Source of the DNA: Gemmatimonadaceae bacterium | GTDB taxonomy: Bacteria > Gemmatimonadota > Gemmatimonadetes > Gemmatimonadales > Gemmatimonadaceae | Direction: 5' to 3' | Assembly (NCBI GenBank): GCA_019752115.1 | Contig: JAIEMN010000009.1 | Span: forward strand, 1 to 64,000 | Length of the DNA: 64,000 nucleotides | In this document: positions 26,782 through 36,206 of the stretch, piece by piece | Position numbering within the stretch: the first letter of the stretch is position 1 | Layout: every line of letters begins with the position of its first letter | Notes under the pieces: generated by a model | The model's database searches: none | Seen by the model: only the letters and a program-made list of their open reading frames with translations | Told to the model about the DNA's origin: nothing | Position numbers and translations under genes: made by a program

Positions 26782-27879
26782 ATGCCTGCTGCGCCCGCTC
26801 CGTCGCTCCCTGATCTGCTCGACCTCGAACCCGATGCCGCCCTCACGGTGCTGCGCGACTGGTTCGCCGCGCGCGGTGAACCCGCGTATCGGGCCACGCA
26901 GGTCTTCGGGCGCCTCTGGCAGAAGCCGGTGCGCACGTTCGACGACATCACCGAGCTGCCGAAAGCCCTGCGTGAGGCCCTCGCCGGGGATTTCCGTCTC
27001 TCCTCACTGCCGCTGGCGACCCGCCAGGCGTCGCGTGACGGGACCGAGAAGTTCCTGTTTCAGCTGCATGATGGCCAGCTGATTGAGACGGTGGCGATCC
27101 CCGACGGGGATCGCATGACCTTCTGCATTTCGTCGCAGGCCGGATGCGCGCTGCAGTGCGCGTTCTGCGCGACTGGCGCGATGGGATTCCAGCGCAATCT
27201 CACGCCCGCCGAGATCGCCGGGCAGGTGCGCGAGCTGCGCATGCTGACGCCACCGATCCTGCCGACGAACATCGTGTTCATGGGCATGGGCGAGCCGCTC
27301 ATGAACTGGAAGGCGGTGAGCCCGACGCTCACGCTGCTCAATGATCCGCGTGCGCTGGGCATCGGCGCGCGCCACATCACGATCTCCACCGTTGGCGTCC
27401 TGCCGGGCATTCAGGCGCTCGCCGCGCGTCCGGAGCAGTTCCGGCTCGCGATCTCGATTCATGCGCCCAGCGATGCGTTGCGCCAGACGCTCATGCCGGT
27501 GAACACCAAGTATCCGTTGGCGGAGGTGATCGATGCCGCGAAGGTGTTCGACCGCCGTGTCACGTTCGAATACGTGATGCTGGGTGGCGTGAACGATCAG
27601 CCCGAGCATGCGGCCCAGCTCGCGCAGCTCGCGCGCGAGTGTCGCGCGTTCGTCAATCTGATCCCCTTGCACCCGGGTGGCTCGATGGGCTTCACGCCGA
27701 CGCCGACCACGCAGATCACCGCCTTCGCCAAGGCCATGCGCGCCCGCGGCGTGGAGACGGCGGTGCGGCGGAGCCGCGGCCTCGACATCGCCGCCGCGTG
27801 CGGTCAGCTACGGACGGAGCGGCTCGGTCGGCGGTTGCCAGTCGCTGCCGATGAAGACCGTGAGGTCCACGTAGCGTGA
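26782..27879 (+). CDS. rlmN: Dual-specificity rRNA/tRNA adenine-C2 methyltransferase RlmN
   Basis: A 365-residue radical SAM enzyme that methylates A2503 of 23S rRNA and A37 of some tRNAs. The cluster motif C-x3-C-x2-C is C122, C126, C129 (GCALQCAFCATG). The second-substrate cysteines are C115 in the first strand and, near the end, C340 in AAACGQLR, which carries the methyl group. GEPLMNW and SIHAP blocks are present. Its last 72 nt overlap the convergent LytR_C gene, although both proteins keep normal C-termini. Confidence 0.96.
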   Translation: MPAAPAPSLPDLLDLEPDAALTVLRDWFAARGEPAYRATQVFGRLWQKPVRTFDDITELPKALREALAGDFRLSSLPLATRQASRDGTEKFLFQLHDGQLIETVAIPDGDRMTFCISSQAGCALQCAFCATGAMGFQRNLTPAEIAGQVRELRMLTPPILPTNIVFMGMGEPLMNWKAVSPTLTLLNDPRALGIGARHITISTVGVLPGIQALAARPEQFRLAISIHAPSDALRQTLMPVNTKYPLAEVIDAAKVFDRRVTFEYVMLGGVNDQPEHAAQLAQLARECRAFVNLIPLHPGGSMGFTPTPTTQITAFAKAMRARGVETAVRRSRGLDIAAACGQLRTERLGRRLPVAADEDREVHVA

Positions 27880-28329
27880 GGTATCGGGACGCGCGGAGAC
27901 GCGTCCCACGCCAAGGGCCTTCCGCACGCGCTCGCCCCAGGCCTCGTGGCCGGTGTGCACTTCGATGAGCGTCTCGGTCCGCGCCAGTTTGGGCGCACTG
28001 TCGAAGTCCACCACGTCGTAGCCGAAGTCGCGCAGCCACAGCGTGGCGCGACGCGCGAGCCCCCGAACACTGGTCGCGTTGATCACCCGCACCACGATGC
28101 GCGTCCCCGCGGGGGCCTGCGCGCTCGTATCGCCGAGCGCCGCGACCGGTGACGTCGTCGCCGGGCCGTCGCCGCTGGGCGCGGCCGTCGCGGCGTCGTC
28201 ACGCAGCCACCACCACCCGCCGGCAATCGCCACGAGCAGCACCACAATCGCGACCAGCAGGCCGCCGCGTCGTGCACGCGACGGAACCGCCGGGCCCTCG
28301 CCCGGCCAGCTGGGCATTCCGCTGGTCAT
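27808..28329 (-). CDS. Membrane-anchored LytR_C-domain protein
   Basis: A 173-residue protein with a short cytoplasmic N-terminus, one membrane segment (about residues 22-43, LLVAIVVLLVAIAGGWWWL) and an Ala/Thr-rich linker. The C-terminal domain (about 75-165) resembles LytR_C (RIVVRVINATSVRGLARR to YVDLTVFIGSDW). The domain is common in cell-wall-associated LytR-CpsA-Psr relatives, but the catalytic LCP part is absent. It follows yqeK by 4 nt, echoing the yqeK-lytR order in many bacteria. The last 24 codons overlap rlmN antisense. Confidence 0.78.
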   Translation of the reverse strand: MTSGMPSWPGEGPAVPSRARRGGLLVAIVVLLVAIAGGWWWLRDDAATAAPSGDGPATTSPVAALGDTSAQAPAGTRIVVRVINATSVRGLARRATLWLRDFGYDVVDFDSAPKLARTETLIEVHTGHEAWGERVRKALGVGRVSARPDTSRYVDLTVFIGSDWQPPTEPLRP

Positions 28330-28333
28330 CGTG

Positions 28334-28879
28334 CTACCGGACCGCGTTCCAGAGGGTCACGGTTTCGTGCGCGAGGCCCTTCCCTTCGCGGATGGTCCAC
28401 TCGAGACGCAAGCGCACCACCTGACGAAACACCGCATCGAAGGCGTCGGGGACGCGCGCCGCGAGGAAGGCGCGATCGGCCTGCATGAACTGGCGTCCGG
28501 GCTCGAGAAAATCCGCCATGTAGAGCGCCCGTCCGGTTCGTCTCCAACCGGCAAAGCCCACGGTATGCCACCGAATCGCGTCGAGCACGTCCTGTCGCTG
28601 CTCGCCCTCGGCCAGCAGTCGGTCCGCTGCCGCCGGTCCATGCAAGAGGCCATACGGACGCTCGGCATCGCCGGTGAGCTGCCGCAGCGTCGGTTCGTCG
28701 GCGTCGCGCAGCGCATCATGCCAGCGTCCGGCGTCGTGCCATGCCGCGCGCTCGTCGCCGGTGAGCGACAACTGCGCCGACCAGGTGTCGAGCAACGCGG
28801 TGACACGGCCGATGTGCGCCCGCCGCTTGTCGGAGACGATCGCCCACGCCGGGAGCTCCGGCGCCTGTCCTGCCGTCAC
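28334..28879 (-). CDS. HD-domain protein, YqeK-like (putative Ap4A hydrolase)
   Basis: A 181-residue single HD-domain protein. Putative metal ligands are in WHDAGRWHD (about residues 47-55), LLHGPAAADRLL, and WHTVGFAGW followed by YMADFLEPGR. These blocks follow the YqeK pattern; YqeK enzymes split diadenosine tetraphosphate. The usual first LHD is WHD here. The following LytR_C gene supports the YqeK assignment, since the two commonly neighbour each other, though nadD and rsfS are not present. It follows trpA after 14 nt. Confidence 0.7.
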   Translation of the reverse strand: MTAGQAPELPAWAIVSDKRRAHIGRVTALLDTWSAQLSLTGDERAAWHDAGRWHDALRDADEPTLRQLTGDAERPYGLLHGPAAADRLLAEGEQRQDVLDAIRWHTVGFAGWRRTGRALYMADFLEPGRQFMQADRAFLAARVPDAFDAVFRQVVRLRLEWTIREGKGLAHETVTLWNAVR

Positions 28880-28893
28880 GATGGAAGCCTCGG

Positions 28894-29673
28894 TTACGCG
28901 GCGTCGATCCCGCGGCGCAGCGCGGCCGTGAGCGCCATGGCCTCATCGACCGACCGGCCCGCCGCGCGCACGAGCGCACTGCCCACCACCACGCCATCGC
29001 CAAGCTTGGCGGCGGCCTGTGCCTGCTCGGGCGTCGAGATGCCGAAACCAATGCAGATGGGGAGCGTGGTGGCGCCACGAAGCCGGGCCACCGTGTCCGG
29101 CAAATCCTCGGGGAGCGATGCGCGCTCACCGGTGACGCCCAGCCGGCTGATGAGGTACACGAACCCGCCGCCGTGTCGGCCAATCTCGGCCATGCGCGGT
29201 GCCGGCGTGGTCGGGGCGACCAGCCGTACAAAATCGAGGCCGCTTTCGCCGAACCACGCCTCGCGGACCGGATCGGCACCGACGGGCAGGTCGGTCGCGA
29301 GGACACCGTCTACCCCAGCGGCGCGCGCGCGCGCGAGCACGTCCGGCCCACCGGCGATGATCGGGTTCAGATAGCTGAACAGCACGACCGGCACGGACAC
29401 CTGCGCCTCGGCCACGATCTCGAGCGTGCGCTCGAGGGTGATCCCCTGATCCAGCGCGATCTGCGAGCTCTGCTGGATGACCGGACCGTCGGCCATCGGA
29501 TCGGAGAACGGCACACCGATCTCGATCACATCGGCGCCCGCTTTGGCGACGCCGCGCATCAACGCCACGCTGGTGGCGAAGTCCGGATGCCCGGCGGTCA
29601 GGTAGGCGACGAGTGCTCGGCGGCCCTCGGCCTTGAGGTCAGCGAAGCGCTGCGTAAGGCGCGAGGTTGTCAC
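28894..29673 (-). CDS. trpA: Tryptophan synthase alpha subunit
   Basis: A 259-residue TIM barrel that cleaves indole-3-glycerol phosphate to indole. Catalytic residues are E51 and D62 (VIEIGVPFSDPMADGP). The phosphate-binding GFGIST and GSALV loops are present. I use GTG 29671-29673, 7 nt after the HD-GYP stop, because it gives the usual short lead before RFADLK. An in-frame ATG at 29710-29712 would add 13 residues and overlap the HD-GYP gene. It is separated from trpB by two signalling genes, unlike the normal trpBA pair. Confidence 0.95.
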   Translation of the reverse strand: MTTSRLTQRFADLKAEGRRALVAYLTAGHPDFATSVALMRGVAKAGADVIEIGVPFSDPMADGPVIQQSSQIALDQGITLERTLEIVAEAQVSVPVVLFSYLNPIIAGGPDVLARARAAGVDGVLATDLPVGADPVREAWFGESGLDFVRLVAPTTPAPRMAEIGRHGGGFVYLISRLGVTGERASLPEDLPDTVARLRGATTLPICIGFGISTPEQAQAAAKLGDGVVVGSALVRAAGRSVDEAMALTAALRRGIDAA

Positions 29674-29680
29674 AGCAGCA

Positions 29681-31141
29681 TCAGGCGAAATAGTCGCCGA
29701 GTTGGATGGCATAGCGCTCAGGATCTTCGGTACGCAGCACGCTGCGCACGTACTGGCCGCTCTCGTCCTGCTCGGTGAGGTCGAGGAGATCGGGCTGGTC
29801 CACGAAGTTGCCGCGATCGTCCATGATGATTTGCACCAGCGGACGCGAGAGCGCCGTGGGGTCGGGATTGGGGGCGATGACCACGGCCAGTTCGTAGCTG
29901 TCGAGCACGACGAGGCTGCCCATGGGATAGATGCCCACGAGATTGATGAACGCCTTGACCAGCGAGGGATCGAGGCCGAGCCGCGGATTGTCGCGCATCC
30001 CGCGCAGGGCATCGTGTGGCGTCCAGACGGCGTCGCGATACACGCGCTCGGTGGTGGCCGCATCGAAGGCATCGGCCACCGCGATGATCTTGCTGTAGAA
30101 GTTGAGCGTCCGCGGACGGACCACGGTGGGATAGCCACTGTGGTCGATGCGCATGTGATGCTCGTACGCCGTGATCATCGCGCGCCACGGGCGCAACGCG
30201 CCGGTGGGCAGGGAGAAGAGGGCGAGCACCCCGTGCCAGGTGTGGGTGCGCATCAGCGCCACTTCGTCTTCGGTGAGCGGCTCCTGCTTGTTCAGCACCT
30301 CGAGCGGAATGCGCGCCTTGCCGATGTCGTGCAGCAGCGAGGCGAGACCGAGATCGAGCAGCTGCGTTTTCGTGAGACCCAGGCGGCGTCCGAGTGCGAC
30401 CGACAGGATGCACACGTTCACGCTGTGCACGAAGGTGTATTCATCGAAGTCGCGCAGCGTGGTCATGCCGAGCAGCGATGCGCTGTCGGTCATGATCATG
30501 TCCACGATGCCCTGTACGGCCCGTTTGGCCTGCCGCAGCCCCTGACTGCGCCCCAGGCGCGCCGACGTGAGCACCTCGCGGGTCACCTCGATGGAGCGCG
30601 CGTAGGTGCGACGCGCCCGTTCCCGTGCACTCGGTTCGACTTCCTCGCGGTCTGCGACCTCGCTGAGATCGAACAGCTCGAACGCGGCGATGTCCGCCTG
30701 TGCCAGTCGCTCGCGCAGGCGCTCCGCGCGATCCTCGACCGGCGTGTCCGCCGGCGGGGCGTGCAGGAACGACAGCAGTACCACCCAGGCGCGCGATGGC
30801 GGCGGCACCGGGATGCTGAGTCCGCCCAGTCCCGCGTTCCGGAAGAGGGCGAGTAGCGACGCGACCGCTGCGTAGTTGTCAAAGGCCAGCCGCAGTCGCG
30901 TGTCGTTGACGAAGAACTGGTCCCCCACCGACCGGAGCTCGCACTGCCCATCGGCGTCGATGACACGTTCGGTGGCGTTGCCCAGCTCGATGATGGCCTT
31001 CTGTACGGCGGCGTTCTCGATCGGATACAGCCGCACCGCGCGAATCGCGGCGTTCATGGCAATCACGAGCGCGCGGCCATGGCGCTGGGGACCAGCCCCC
31101 TGCACCGCGGCGGATGACAGCGGCGTTCCCGGCCCGGTCAT
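29681..31141 (-). CDS. HD-GYP domain protein (putative cyclic-di-GMP phosphodiesterase)
   Basis: A 486-residue protein. The HD-GYP core runs from about residue 190 to 410. It has H239, the HD pair at 271-272 (LLHDIGKARIP), H328-H329 and the GYP signature at 336-338 (IDHSGYP), all consistent with an active phosphodiesterase. The N-terminal region (about 22-130) has no named domain but resembles the N-terminus of the HEAT protein encoded just before it (LYP and N block, then a G-x-G-L step). No membrane segment is seen. It overlaps the HEAT gene by 4 nt and precedes trpA by 7 nt. Confidence 0.85.
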   Translation of the reverse strand: MTGPGTPLSSAAVQGAGPQRHGRALVIAMNAAIRAVRLYPIENAAVQKAIIELGNATERVIDADGQCELRSVGDQFFVNDTRLRLAFDNYAAVASLLALFRNAGLGGLSIPVPPPSRAWVVLLSFLHAPPADTPVEDRAERLRERLAQADIAAFELFDLSEVADREEVEPSARERARRTYARSIEVTREVLTSARLGRSQGLRQAKRAVQGIVDMIMTDSASLLGMTTLRDFDEYTFVHSVNVCILSVALGRRLGLTKTQLLDLGLASLLHDIGKARIPLEVLNKQEPLTEDEVALMRTHTWHGVLALFSLPTGALRPWRAMITAYEHHMRIDHSGYPTVVRPRTLNFYSKIIAVADAFDAATTERVYRDAVWTPHDALRGMRDNPRLGLDPSLVKAFINLVGIYPMGSLVVLDSYELAVVIAPNPDPTALSRPLVQIIMDDRGNFVDQPDLLDLTEQDESGQYVRSVLRTEDPERYAIQLGDYFA

Positions 31142-32802
31142 GCGCCGTCCCGCATGGCCCGCAGCACGGCGCTGCGGACGACGACTTCCTTGGTGTCGCT
31201 CGCCTTCTGCAGCGAGGCGAACGCGGCGGGGGTCCCGATCAGGCCGAGGGCCCGGGCGGCGCAGGCGCGGAACTCCGGGGGCTCCTTGGCGCCGAGCAAT
31301 CCCTTGCTGTTCAGAATGGCATCGAGTTCGGCGACGCCGGCGTCACCGCACAACGATCCAAACGCCTCGAACAGCGCCATCTTCTCGCCGAGATCGGTCG
31401 CCCGCGTTTCCTTGGCGCGCAGCACCGCGAGGAGGCGCGGGAGCACGGCCGCATGCTTCCGCGCCGCGATGGTGCGATAGATCGCCACGCGCACTTCGCG
31501 GTCCGCATCATCGATCGCGCGCTCGAGCGCCTGCAGCGCTCCCGGTGATCCGACGTTCGCGAGTGCGTTCACCGCATCGAGACGCATGCGGACGTCATCG
31601 TTGCGCAGCAGTTTGGCGAGTCCGGGCACGGTGGCCGGCGTGGCGAGTTGCGTCGCAATCTTGAGGGCGCCCTTCACGACGCCGGTCTCCGGATGCTCGA
31701 GCAGGCGCGCCAATTCCGCGAGATGCGCGCCCGCGAGGCGCAGCGAGGCGCGTTCCACGGCCGCGCGCGCCGGGGACGCACCCGCCGTACCCAGCCACAA
31801 TACGAGCGGCTCGAGTGCCGACGGCCGCAGCTCGCGGAACAGCTCCTCGAGCAGCGACATCGCGGGCGTGCGCGCGCTGTCGTCGATGGCGAGCAGCAGC
31901 TGGGACATGGCTCGCGGCTCACTCAGGCGATGCGCGATGGCCCCCAGCGCCTCCACGAGTTCGGGGTCGAGCCCCGGATGCTTGGCGGCTTTGGCGGTCT
32001 CGCGCAGGGCGTAGGCCACCATCTCGTACTGGGCGGCCGTCAGCAATTCCACGACGAGCGTATCGAGCGCCTCGAATGCCTCGCGCCGGGCCTCCTCCGG
32101 AAGCCCCACGTCAATCAGGTCGAGTAGGCTGTCGAGCACGACGCGCCGTGGATCATCGGCATACGCGCGCTCGAGTTCAGCCTGCAGCGTGGCGATCTCC
32201 CGCTGATCGAGGAAGTAGAGCGCGCCGTCGAAATCCTCCATGCGGATGAACGACGAACTCGTCTGCTCCGCCTCCGCCGACTCGTCGTACACGTGCAGCG
32301 TCGGTCGTCCCTCGGTCTCCGATTCGCCGGGCGTCGTCCCGATGTCGCCACCGAAGCTGTCGAGAAAGCGGTACGTCAGGCACTGGTAGTCGGCGACCCA
32401 CAGGAGCGTGACGAGGTCGTCGTCGTCCGTGTTGGCGGAGCGCGCCGCTTGCACGAGCCCGAGGAAGGACTCGAGCTCCCGTTCTTCAAACCCCGGTGCG
32501 AAGGTCAGGCCGCGAATGCCGTCCCGGTACAGGAGCCAGGGCAGCGCATCGGAGCCGCGCTCGGCATCCTGGTACACGACGGCGTTGCCGTAGCGAAACG
32601 CATTCTCGCGGACTTCGATCTCCACCGATTCGCCCTGCCGCCACAAGAGCGAGAAGGCCTGTCGCGCCTCGAGCAGCCGTTGGGCGCGCTGCGGATTGTT
32701 CGGCAGATACAGCTGCACGGCACTGAACGCCTTGGCGAGGGCGCGCAGGGCGTCCTCGACCACGGAAGGCGGTACGCTGGTGTCGTGCCGGAGAACGGTC
32801 AT
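31138..32802 (-). CDS. HEAT-repeat protein with an N-terminal domain shared with the HD-GYP neighbour
   Basis: A 554-residue soluble protein. Residues about 14-125 match the pattern of the HD-GYP protein N-terminus (AVQLYLPNNP, then EIEVRENAFRYGN, then LLYRDGIRGLTF). An acidic stretch follows, then from about 330 to the end helical repeats of HEAT or PBS-lyase type (VPGLAKLLRNDDVRMRLDAVNALANVG and similar units of 30-40 residues). Such repeats usually bind proteins. ATG 32800-32802 lies 7 nt after the trpB stop. No enzyme motif is visible; it may be a scaffold for the HD-GYP protein. Confidence 0.75.
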   Translation of the reverse strand: MTVLRHDTSVPPSVVEDALRALAKAFSAVQLYLPNNPQRAQRLLEARQAFSLLWRQGESVEIEVRENAFRYGNAVVYQDAERGSDALPWLLYRDGIRGLTFAPGFEERELESFLGLVQAARSANTDDDDLVTLLWVADYQCLTYRFLDSFGGDIGTTPGESETEGRPTLHVYDESAEAEQTSSSFIRMEDFDGALYFLDQREIATLQAELERAYADDPRRVVLDSLLDLIDVGLPEEARREAFEALDTLVVELLTAAQYEMVAYALRETAKAAKHPGLDPELVEALGAIAHRLSEPRAMSQLLLAIDDSARTPAMSLLEELFRELRPSALEPLVLWLGTAGASPARAAVERASLRLAGAHLAELARLLEHPETGVVKGALKIATQLATPATVPGLAKLLRNDDVRMRLDAVNALANVGSPGALQALERAIDDADREVRVAIYRTIAARKHAAVLPRLLAVLRAKETRATDLGEKMALFEAFGSLCGDAGVAELDAILNSKGLLGAKEPPEFRACAARALGLIGTPAAFASLQKASDTKEVVVRSAVLRAMRDGA

Positions 32803-32809
32803 GAAGGGA

Positions 32810-34012
32810 TCAGACGTCCGGGAGTTCGTGCTGACTGATGGTGCCGACATCCTTGTCACCGCGCCCACTGACGCAGAGGAGGACCGATTCGCCCTGGCTC
32901 CACCGCCCCGCGGCCTTCTCGATCCACGCCACGGCATGCGCCGTTTCGAGCGCCGGAATGATCCCCTCCAAACGACTGAGGAGCGCGACGCCGCGCAACG
33001 CCTCCGTGTCGGTCACCGCCTCATAGCGCGCCCGTCCGCTGTCGTGCAGCCAGGCGTGCTCGGGGCCCACGCCGGGGTAATCGAGGCCGGCGGAAATGGA
33101 GTGCGCCGGATGCACCTGACCGGCGGCGTCCTGCAGCAGGTAGCTGAGCGACCCGTGCAGCACGCCCGGCGTGCCCTTGGTGATCGACGCGCTGTGGCGA
33201 TCGGTGTCGAGGCCATCACCCGCGGCTTCCACCCCCACCAGCTCCACGTCGGCATCGGCGACGAAGCCCGCAAAGATCCCCATCGCGTTCGACCCGCCGC
33301 CAACGCACGCCACCACCGTGCGCGGGAGCGCGCCCGTCTTCTCGAGCATCTGGGCCCGCGCTTCGCGGCCGATGACCGACTGGAACTCGCGCACCATGCG
33401 CGGATACGGCGCCGGGCCCACCACCGAGCCGATGATGTAGTGGCTCGTGTTCACGGTGGTCACCCAGTCGCGAATCGCTTCCGTCGTGGCATCCTTCAGC
33501 GTCCGCGTACCCGAGGTCACCGGCACCACGGTGGCGCCCATGAGGCGCATGCGGAACACATTCAGCGCCTGGCGCCGCATGTCTTCCTCGCCCATGTAGA
33601 CGACGCACTCGAGCCCGAAGCGGGCGCAGATCGTCGCGGTCGCCACGCCATGCTGCCCGGCCCCCGTCTCCGCGATGATGCGCCGCTTGCCCATGCGCAT
33701 GGCGAGCAGCGCCTGACCCACCGTGTTGTTGATCTTGTGGGCACCGGTGTGATTCAGGTCCTCCCGCTTCATCCACACCGGCGTGCCGACGCGCTCCGTG
33801 AGGCGCGGCGCAAAGGTCAGGGCCGTCGGCCGGCCCACGTACTCATGCAGCAGCGCGGCCAGTTCGGCCTGAAACGCGGCATCATGGCGCGCGGTCTCGA
33901 ACGCGGCCTCCAGTTCGTCGAGCGCCGGAATGAGCGTTTCCGGGACGTAGCGACCACCGAACGGCCCAAACCGGTCGGAGATCACCGCTGCTTCGTGCGC
34001 CACCATCGTCAT
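32810..34012 (-). CDS. trpB: Tryptophan synthase beta subunit
   Basis: A 400-residue PLP enzyme joining indole and serine. K93 in [10 protein letters not shown] forms the Schiff base, the phosphate loop is [10 protein letters not shown], and the start block is [14 protein letters not shown]. It is the standard TrpB1 type. ATG 34010-34012 overlaps the trpF stop by 1 nt (TGATG); a GTG one codon earlier is also possible. The HEAT gene follows at 7 nt, so the run continues into the signalling genes before trpA. Confidence 0.96.
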
Positions 34013-34674
34013 CACACCGTCTCCGCGGCGCCATGCGCCGCTGCTACGAACTGTTGGACCAGCGCCCCGTCCTTGAGACCGGGTGCGGTTTCGACACCGG
34101 AAGATACGTCCACGACGTCCGGCGAAAGCAACCGGATCGCCATCGCGACGTTGGACGGGCGTAATCCCCCCGCCAAGATGATTCGCCCATCAGGAAGCGC
34201 CCGGCGCAGGGCGGTGACATCGGCGGCAAGCCCGGCCCAGTCCAGCGCCACGCCGGTGCCGCCGAGCTGCCCGACCACGAGGGCATCGAGCACCAGATGG
34301 CCAGCCGCGGCGGCCAGCGCTTCGGCCTCGGGTGGCAGGGCCGGACCGGCGACCCGCAGGACTGGCCACACCGTGCGTCCGGACTGCTCGGCCAGCTGAC
34401 GAACGGCGGCTGGTGTCCGCGCCCCGTGGAGCTGAATGACATCGAGGTCGAGGGCGTCTGCGATCGTCAGCACCTCTGCGTCGGACTGGTCACCGAACAC
34501 CGCGGCGCGTTGCACCCCCGGCCGCCGCGGTCCCAGGACGTGGCGTGCCTGATCGAACGTCAGCAGCCGCGGGCCGCCGGCGAGGATCGCGCCGAGATAC
34601 GCCGCACCACTGGCGACGGCCTGCGCGGCGTCGTCCGGGCGCGTGAGACCGCAGATCTTGACGGCGACGGTCAT
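34012..34674 (-). CDS. trpF: Phosphoribosylanthranilate isomerase
   Basis: A 220-residue TIM barrel performing the Amadori rearrangement in tryptophan synthesis. The start [11 protein letters not shown] holds the catalytic Cys (C8). [10 protein letters not shown] and the phosphate-binding [11 protein letters not shown] and [11 protein letters not shown] blocks follow. The length is normal. ATG 34672-34674 overlaps the trpC stop by 1 nt. It lies between trpC and trpB in a tight run, indicating co-translation. Confidence 0.95.
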
Positions 34675-35536: not shown

Positions 35537-35597
35537 GGCGGGTGGTTGGATTCGGCCTTTTTACGGGCTGCCACCCGTCCCCCTACGTGGAGCTGCA

Positions 35598-36206
35598 ATG
35601 CCGCTTACGAAGCGACAGCGGGAGATTCTGAGTTTCCTGTCGGAGTACAACGAGGCGAACGGCTATGCCCCGAGCTTCGAAGAGATCGCCTCGCAGTTCA
35701 ACTATAACTCGCTGGCGACGGTGCACGAACATCTCACGAATCTCGAACGCAAGGGGTACATCAAGCGCTCGTACAACGAGAGTCGTGCCATCGAAATTCT
35801 GCCCTCGGAGATGTACCAGCGCGCGGTGGAACTGCCGTTGTTGGGCAGCGTCGCGGCCGGTGCGCCGATCGAAGCGATGCACGCCGGCGAAACCATGGCG
35901 GTGCCCGATGGGTTCCTGCGAAAGAGCGGCAGCCACTATGTGCTGCGCGTTCGCGGCGACTCCATGATCGAGGAGCACATCCGCGACGGCGACTACGTCG
36001 TGATCAACGACAAGCAGGCGGCGGACAACGGTGAAATGGTCATCGCCCTGCTCGACGGCGCCGGGGCCACGGTCAAGCGCTACTACCGGGAGCGGGATGG
36101 CCGCATTCGGCTGCAGCCGGCCAACGAGACGATGCAGCCCCTGTTCGTCCACGAAGACGACGTCCGCATCCAGGGGATCGTCGTGGGCGTGCTGCGACGT
36201 TACTGA
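35598..36206 (+). CDS. lexA: LexA SOS repressor
   Basis: A 202-residue transcriptional repressor with self-cleaving serine protease domain. The N-terminal winged helix is residues 1-65 (SFEEIASQFNYNSLATVHEH). The cleavage bond is A87-G88 (SVAAGAPIEA), and the catalytic dyad is S122 (RGDSM) and K160 (TVKRYYRE). ATG 35598 has GGAG 5 nt upstream. It is the only plus-strand gene inside the trp region: it lies between trpD and trpC on the opposite strand and overlaps the trpD 3' end by 7 nt. Confidence 0.95.
   Translation: MPLTKRQREILSFLSEYNEANGYAPSFEEIASQFNYNSLATVHEHLTNLERKGYIKRSYNESRAIEILPSEMYQRAVELPLLGSVAAGAPIEAMHAGETMAVPDGFLRKSGSHYVLRVRGDSMIEEHIRDGDYVVINDKQAADNGEMVIALLDGAGATVKRYYRERDGRIRLQPANETMQPLFVHEDDVRIQGIVVGVLRRY

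Follow-up and report, generated by a model that had tools for sequence, protein, structure and literature searches.

An N-terminal domain shared by an HD-GYP phosphohydrolase and a HEAT-repeat protein encoded as a conserved gene pair

An HD-GYP and HEAT-repeat gene pair between trpB and trpA

In the window (the whole 64,000-nt stretch of DNA analyzed), the reverse strand carries two genes between trpB and trpA, which code for a HEAT-repeat protein and, 3′ to it, an HD-GYP phosphohydrolase (Table 1). We named the N-terminal domain of both proteins LYP, after the tyrosine of an LYxxxHP/N motif lying between its first two helices; this tyrosine is invariant in 28 of 28 diverse sequences. The two genes have 4 nt in common (ATGA, 31138-31141), bearing out the overlap seen in an earlier sequence-only reading of this DNA, and the outer gaps, from the HEAT gene to trpB and from the HD-GYP gene to trpA, are 7 nt each. 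Pfam searches recovered HD_5 (79 bits, cut-off 27.2) and HD (37 bits, cut-off 22) in the HD-GYP protein, and HEAT_2 (71.9 bits against a cut-off of 27.7) in four stretches of the C-terminal half of the HEAT protein; NCBIfam yielded no HEAT-protein equivalog above cut-off for the latter. A search of Rfam around the operon found nothing. Farther out (26782-28879 and 35590-36206), genes named by eye as rlmN-like, LytR_C-like, short HD-domain-like and lexA-like are syntenic with the trp-pair block across much of the class.

Table 1. Features of the LYP gene pair and its trp flanks in the window.
Feature	Coordinates	Strand	Evidence
LYP-domain HD-GYP phosphohydrolase gene, 486 aa	29681..31141	-	HD_5 E 4.6e-22, catalytic residues intact
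Shared N-terminal LYP domain, HD-GYP protein, about residues 20-160	30662..31084	-	Profile match; AlphaFold2 pLDDT 91.7
HD-GYP catalytic domain, about residues 229-400	29942..30457	-	Pfam and residue alignment
HD-GYP catalytic-domain residues: D233, Y235, H239, H271, D272, K275, H300, H328, H329, G336-Y337-P338, D357
LYP-domain HEAT-repeat protein gene, 554 aa	31138..32802	-	HEAT_2 E 5.6e-20
Shared N-terminal LYP domain, HEAT protein, about residues 12-148	32359..32769	-	Profile match; AlphaFold2 pLDDT 88.7
HEAT-repeat region, about residues 279-549	31156..31968	-	HEAT_2 (four stretches); range of weak HEAT-type NCBIfam match
trpA, flank, outside the module	28894..29673	-	Named from sequence; conserved synteny
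trpB, flank, outside the module	32810..34015	-	Named from sequence; conserved synteny

Homology and predicted fold of the LYP domain

The proposal that the two proteins have one N-terminal domain in common came from an alignment by eye, in which three blocks of the HD-GYP and HEAT proteins stand in register: AAIRAVRLYPIEN and AFSAVQLYLPNN, GQCELR and ESVEIE, and LALFRNAGLGGLSI and PWLLYRDGIRGLTF, respectively. A direct BLASTP comparison of the two full proteins was not significant, with its best hit (E 0.49) lying outside the LYP domain; hence, the alignment required a profile test. Using homologs from 61 related genomes, we found a significant profile-profile match between the two N-termini (probability 97%, E 3.7e-9, 155 columns; alignments of 55 and 48 sequences), which was retained with a smaller non-redundant set (probability 94%, E 8.4e-8). 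These matches span 123-155 columns, and the other region pairs of the two proteins matched at about 0%. As a control, the maximum score from 200 column-shuffled profiles was 21.2, against 53.2 observed. Single-family HMMs also cross over, with the HEAT-side model recovering HD-GYP N-termini and the reverse. Across phyla, an HMM from 17 HD-type domains of another phylum recovered the window HEAT protein (E 2.2e-7), one from 17 HEAT-type domains of that phylum recovered the window HD-GYP protein (E 2.5e-7), and the two sets matched each other at E 3e-26; these 34 domains were chosen with a mixed model, which makes these figures mildly circular, and the profile and HMM tests within the phylum are free of this circularity. 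A resemblance arising by chance or from composition, which the lack of a pairwise BLASTP match could be taken to favor, thus deserves practically no credence: it is refuted by profile E-values of about 1e-7 to 1e-26, by shuffled controls that score far lower, and by reciprocal HMM matches between families and phyla. The LYP domains of the HD-GYP and HEAT proteins are accordingly homologous at the sequence level, and the single shared domain of the sequence-only reading is confirmed by profiles, reciprocal HMMs and shuffles alike.

Structure prediction with AlphaFold2 returned the same order of elements for each N-terminus: H-H-E-E-H-E-H-H-E in the HD-GYP protein and, in the HEAT protein, the same series plus a single additional strand. 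Together with the sequence alignment, this element order predicts an equal fold for the two N-termini, and the models depict LYP as an N-terminal helix-hairpin plus an α/β domain. The domain had been described earlier as lacking a known name, and indeed neither Pfam nor NCBIfam has a model for it: Pfam searches with the N-terminal 165 residues of 24 and 25 sequences gave scattered one-off matches, none of them a family for the domain, and NCBIfam searches with both window proteins gave no name above cut-off for this region. Against the PDB, the best Foldseek E-value for the LYP models was 0.2, and the best VIA-align Z-scores were 5.6 and 6.9, values that common arrangements also reach; by fold, no PDB entry is conspicuous as an LYP match. 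Weak matches to PDB chains by sequence (leucine-rich repeat, designed, kinase and eIF2B-like; best E 0.0097) were taken as chance.

Conservation of the pair and its genomic settings

Of 150 genomes examined in the phylum, 100 contain the HD-GYP N-domain, and a survey of co-occurrence found the HEAT N-domain in every one of these 100. The usual gene order, trpC-(trpF)-trpB-HEAT-HDGYP-trpA, recurs in several families, and the pair itself is class-wide in Gemmatimonadota-type genomes; the location between trpB and trpA, reported in the sequence-only reading, is real and ancient in the class. Overlap was measured in 48 type-1 pairs and is present in 34, amounting to exactly 4 nt in 30 of these, which suggests that their translation may be coupled. 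Paralogous pairs away from trp are found in Gemmatimonadota-type genomes (L139-L142, L145, L156, L098 twice, and L097), in which the gene for a 660-740-aa LYP scaffold precedes, and usually overlaps, that for an LYP-HDGYP about 400-500 aa long. For the upstream partners in the L142, L165 and L173 pairs, which gave no Pfam HEAT match, the designation HEAT is putative. One genome of the window's genus also has a second type-1 pair (L066; G029:C1:3976000-3990000), whose products share about 41% and 52% identity with those of the window and next to which no trp genes were detected.

The conservation of the trpB/trpA position through most of the class and the 7-nt spacings in the window would fit a regulatory role of the pair in tryptophan synthesis, exerted for instance on TrpA/TrpB or on trp expression. 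We hold such a role to be very improbable, and natural losses and relocations lead us to reject it. On the one hand, about 12 genomes retain trpB-trpA without the pair, and in genomes lacking it the two trp genes lie 26-300 nt apart (e.g., G004, G001, G022, G025, G032, G093, G070, G085, G089). On the other hand, five genomes (G038, G040, G055, G056, G136) keep the pair and have a divergent trpB-trpA elsewhere (TrpB 56-62% identical to that of the window), and in G059, G044, G048 and G129, all incomplete genomes, the pair is kept and no TrpA was detected; G048 retains a short trpB fragment adjoining the pair. Related pairs elsewhere, moreover, adjoin unrelated genes. The pair is not confined to genomes with trp genes: it also occurs where native trp genes lie elsewhere or went undetected, and some genomes have trp genes and lack the pair. 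Since it survives the loss or movement of trp, and can drop out leaving trpB and trpA adjacent, it is not a tryptophan device, and its site within trp is a trait of the lineage with no functional tie to tryptophan. Tryptophan-gene loss or displacement around the pair, as read from incomplete genomes, is likely.

Two further observations concern individual loci. In the five genomes with a divergent trpB-trpA, the native trp cluster has seemingly been replaced, with the LYP pair at the old site. In G165, a 352-aa open frame between trpB and trpA (L284:2753-3808; G165:C7) comprises the HEAT-side LYP and N-terminal part (to about residue 255) joined to the last 67 or so HD-GYP residues; by its sequence, it is a natural in-frame deletion, i.e., a fusion remnant.

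Beyond the phylum, a species-genome scan with the HD-GYP alignment returned at least 80 loci, mostly ordinary HD-GYPs, and was the source of the first three outside-phylum pairs. Three of the 80 outside-phylum HD-GYP loci listed code for LYP-HDGYPs (in a deltaproteobacterial MAG, a planctomycete and a Phycisphaerales MAG); each is immediately preceded by an overlapping LYP gene, and the remaining 77 have no clear LYP neighbor (p about 1e-5 for these 80 loci; hypergeometric distribution). In the phylum of the deltaproteobacterial MAG (hereinafter the second phylum), the LYP domain is present in 67 of 148 genomes. The 150 matches listed there comprise 53 tandem pairs (106 matches, spaced 1.4-2.3 kb), three further couples in which a single ORF contains both domains, and 38 LYP genes standing alone. 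All 17 tandem pairs inspected have the scaffold first and then the HD-GYP gene on the same strand, HEAT_2 scored above cut-off in 9/9 scaffolds scanned, and the flanks include RadA-like, GidA/TrmFO-like and small HEAT genes. In a Planctomycetota group, from the phylum of the planctomycete above, 36 of the 99 genomes contain the LYP domain, and tandem pairs number at least 15. Together these data point to a widespread but undescribed signaling pair, recurring in distant bacterial groups away from trp.

Other arrangements were also seen. The genome from which the window comes also encodes a 571-aa protein with a third, partial LYP and a HEAT-like part (L283:5378-7090; G000:C19), with no HD-GYP gene recognized beside it; this gene and the 38 single genes among the 150 matches listed indicate that LYP can act without an HD-GYP or scaffold partner. 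At three second-phylum loci (L263:3032-3598, L269:7372-7932, L270:2285-2848), a gene for a small stand-alone HEAT protein of 187-189 aa lies convergently just after the LYP-HDGYP gene. We discarded it as a third partner, as it is not a Pfam HEAT protein at every locus scanned (not in L279). RadA-like and GidA/TrmFO-like genes flank the L269 group, and the L264 pair likewise adjoins a RadA-like gene. Finally, two LYP domains stand in tandem in four second-phylum proteins of about 1,430 aa (L280:3053-7393, L280:7899-12176, L281:3042-7334, L282:3530-7771), of which the one scanned, from L281, has the architecture GGDEF-AAA-LYP-LYP-HEAT (HEAT_2). This architecture ties LYP to c-di-GMP synthesis in one chain; with HD-GYP, GGDEF and HEAT all among its associates, the domain accompanies HEAT repeats and both arms of c-di-GMP turnover.

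Adjacency combined with N-terminal homology is what a tandem duplication would leave, and the shared domain might be a relic of such an event or of domain accretion, with operon inertia keeping together two proteins whose jobs differ. We find this improbable, in that the gene order persists from phylum to phylum next to varying flanking genes (trp in the window; RadA- and GidA/TrmFO-like in the second phylum), the pair has stayed together while the surrounding trp genes were lost or displaced, and the catalytic residues (see below) remain invariant. The dedicated two-protein module suggested by the sequence-only reading is instead supported by co-occurrence, by loss as a unit, and by the same order next to different flanks.

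A candidate cyclic-di-nucleotide signaling module and its known relatives

An alignment of 84 LYP-HDGYPs shows no variation (84/84) in the GYP motif, at the position of the catalytic Lys, or at those of seven of the eight PmGH metal ligands; the catalytic Asp (equivalent to D183) is conserved in 83. At the eighth ligand position, equivalent to E185, 82 of the 84 have Tyr, and the glutamate of the textbook HHE motif is not conserved (Met in 54). Y/F-subfamily HD-GYPs are less well characterized. A binuclear center has been proposed for that subfamily, and the E185A mutant of PmGH retains reduced activity (PMC4159591). GGDEF was matched 13 times in the genome of the window, so that c-di-GMP is expected in the cell. 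By these sequence criteria, LYP-HDGYP is probably a cyclic-di-nucleotide phosphodiesterase; we infer that its substrate is most likely c-di-GMP, and it could be another cyclic dinucleotide.

Overlap, co-loss and a fixed order in varied surroundings form the pattern of a heteromeric complex, and a domain present on both proteins offers a natural contact between them, which leads us to propose LYP as the docking element. Taking as its starting point the homology of the domains, their pairing, the order and overlap of the genes, and the conserved catalytic residues, all read directly from the sequences, our model, which we hold to be on balance probable, is that of a paired cyclic-di-nucleotide signaling module in which LYP joins an HD-GYP phosphodiesterase and a coupled LYP-HEAT scaffold in a complex. 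The upstream, translationally coupled gene would supply a HEAT-repeat solenoid bearing LYP, and the downstream gene an HD-GYP phosphodiesterase bearing LYP, most likely acting on c-di-GMP. LYP would serve as a homotypic docking or dimerization domain; we infer such an LYP-LYP contact as what holds the enzyme and the HEAT arm in one, probably heteromeric, complex. The HEAT arm, in turn, may recruit or sense a partner and thereby set where or when the phosphodiesterase acts.

The main rival is a ligand-sensing role, in which LYP would be an input domain and both proteins would respond to the same signal within a common pathway without assembling into a complex. Input domains of HD-GYP proteins typically lie at the N-terminus, ahead of the output domain, as LYP does; its presence in the GGDEF-AAA-HEAT protein and in single genes also agrees with sensing. 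However, strict pairing, overlap and co-loss exceed the needs of a shared signal, and the solved folds allowed no inference of a ligand pocket; we accordingly judge this alternative unlikely. Extending the docking model, we more tentatively envisage LYP as a cross-phylum c-di-GMP hub family, a generalization that we hold to be somewhat less likely than not. In it, a dimerization domain would connect HEAT scaffolds in trans with a phosphodiesterase (LYP-HEAT plus LYP-HDGYP) and in cis with a diguanylate cyclase (GGDEF-AAA-LYP-LYP-HEAT); if true, local c-di-GMP turnover would be controlled on a HEAT platform.

The HD-GYP catalytic domain and the HEAT repeats are already known kinds, and in the family libraries and in papers under open licenses (mention elsewhere is possible) we found no description of the LYP domain, the pair, or the GGDEF-AAA-LYP-LYP-HEAT architecture. 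HD-GYP proteins are usually accounted for by a named sensory domain within the polypeptide itself; in this case, an entire HD-GYP subfamily in three bacterial lineages has a dedicated second protein with the same N-terminal domain. Naming LYP would allow many proteins annotated as 'HEAT repeat' or 'HD domain' to be re-annotated as parts of one system. The pair also illustrates that its striking site within the trp operon is no guide to function.

Several known systems invite comparison. DUF3391, the N-terminal domain of some HD-GYP proteins, resembles LYP in also standing ahead of the HD-GYP domain, and matches the window HD-GYP protein weakly (E 0.029) in linker residues 159-204. This match differs in scoring 15.4 bits against a gathering cut-off of 27.8 and in covering only profile positions 90-135 (the last third), outside the LYP domain. 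Bd1817, a Bdellovibrio HD-GYP protein without the GYP tyrosine that is reported to be inactive (PMC4159591), has the HD-GYP fold and a binuclear metal center of the kind expected for the window protein; in the latter, by contrast, GYP and ligands are intact. Like the HEAT_2 or PBS-lyase-type HEAT-repeat proteins, the window HEAT protein has HEAT_2 above the Pfam cut-off in its C-terminal half; unlike them, it carries LYP and pairs with an HD-GYP protein. A close likeness in the catalytic domain is to the HD-GYP c-di-GMP phosphodiesterases PmGH, TM0186 and RpfG (PMC4159591), with which LYP-HDGYPs share the HD_5 domain, the HDxGK and HH..GYP motifs, seven of the eight PmGH metal ligands, and equivalents of the catalytic Asp and Lys; the Tyr at the E185 position likens them to the Y/F subfamily (PMC4159591). 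They differ from these enzymes in having an N-terminal LYP rather than a REC, GAF or other named input domain, and in the conserved LYP-scaffold gene that lies upstream.
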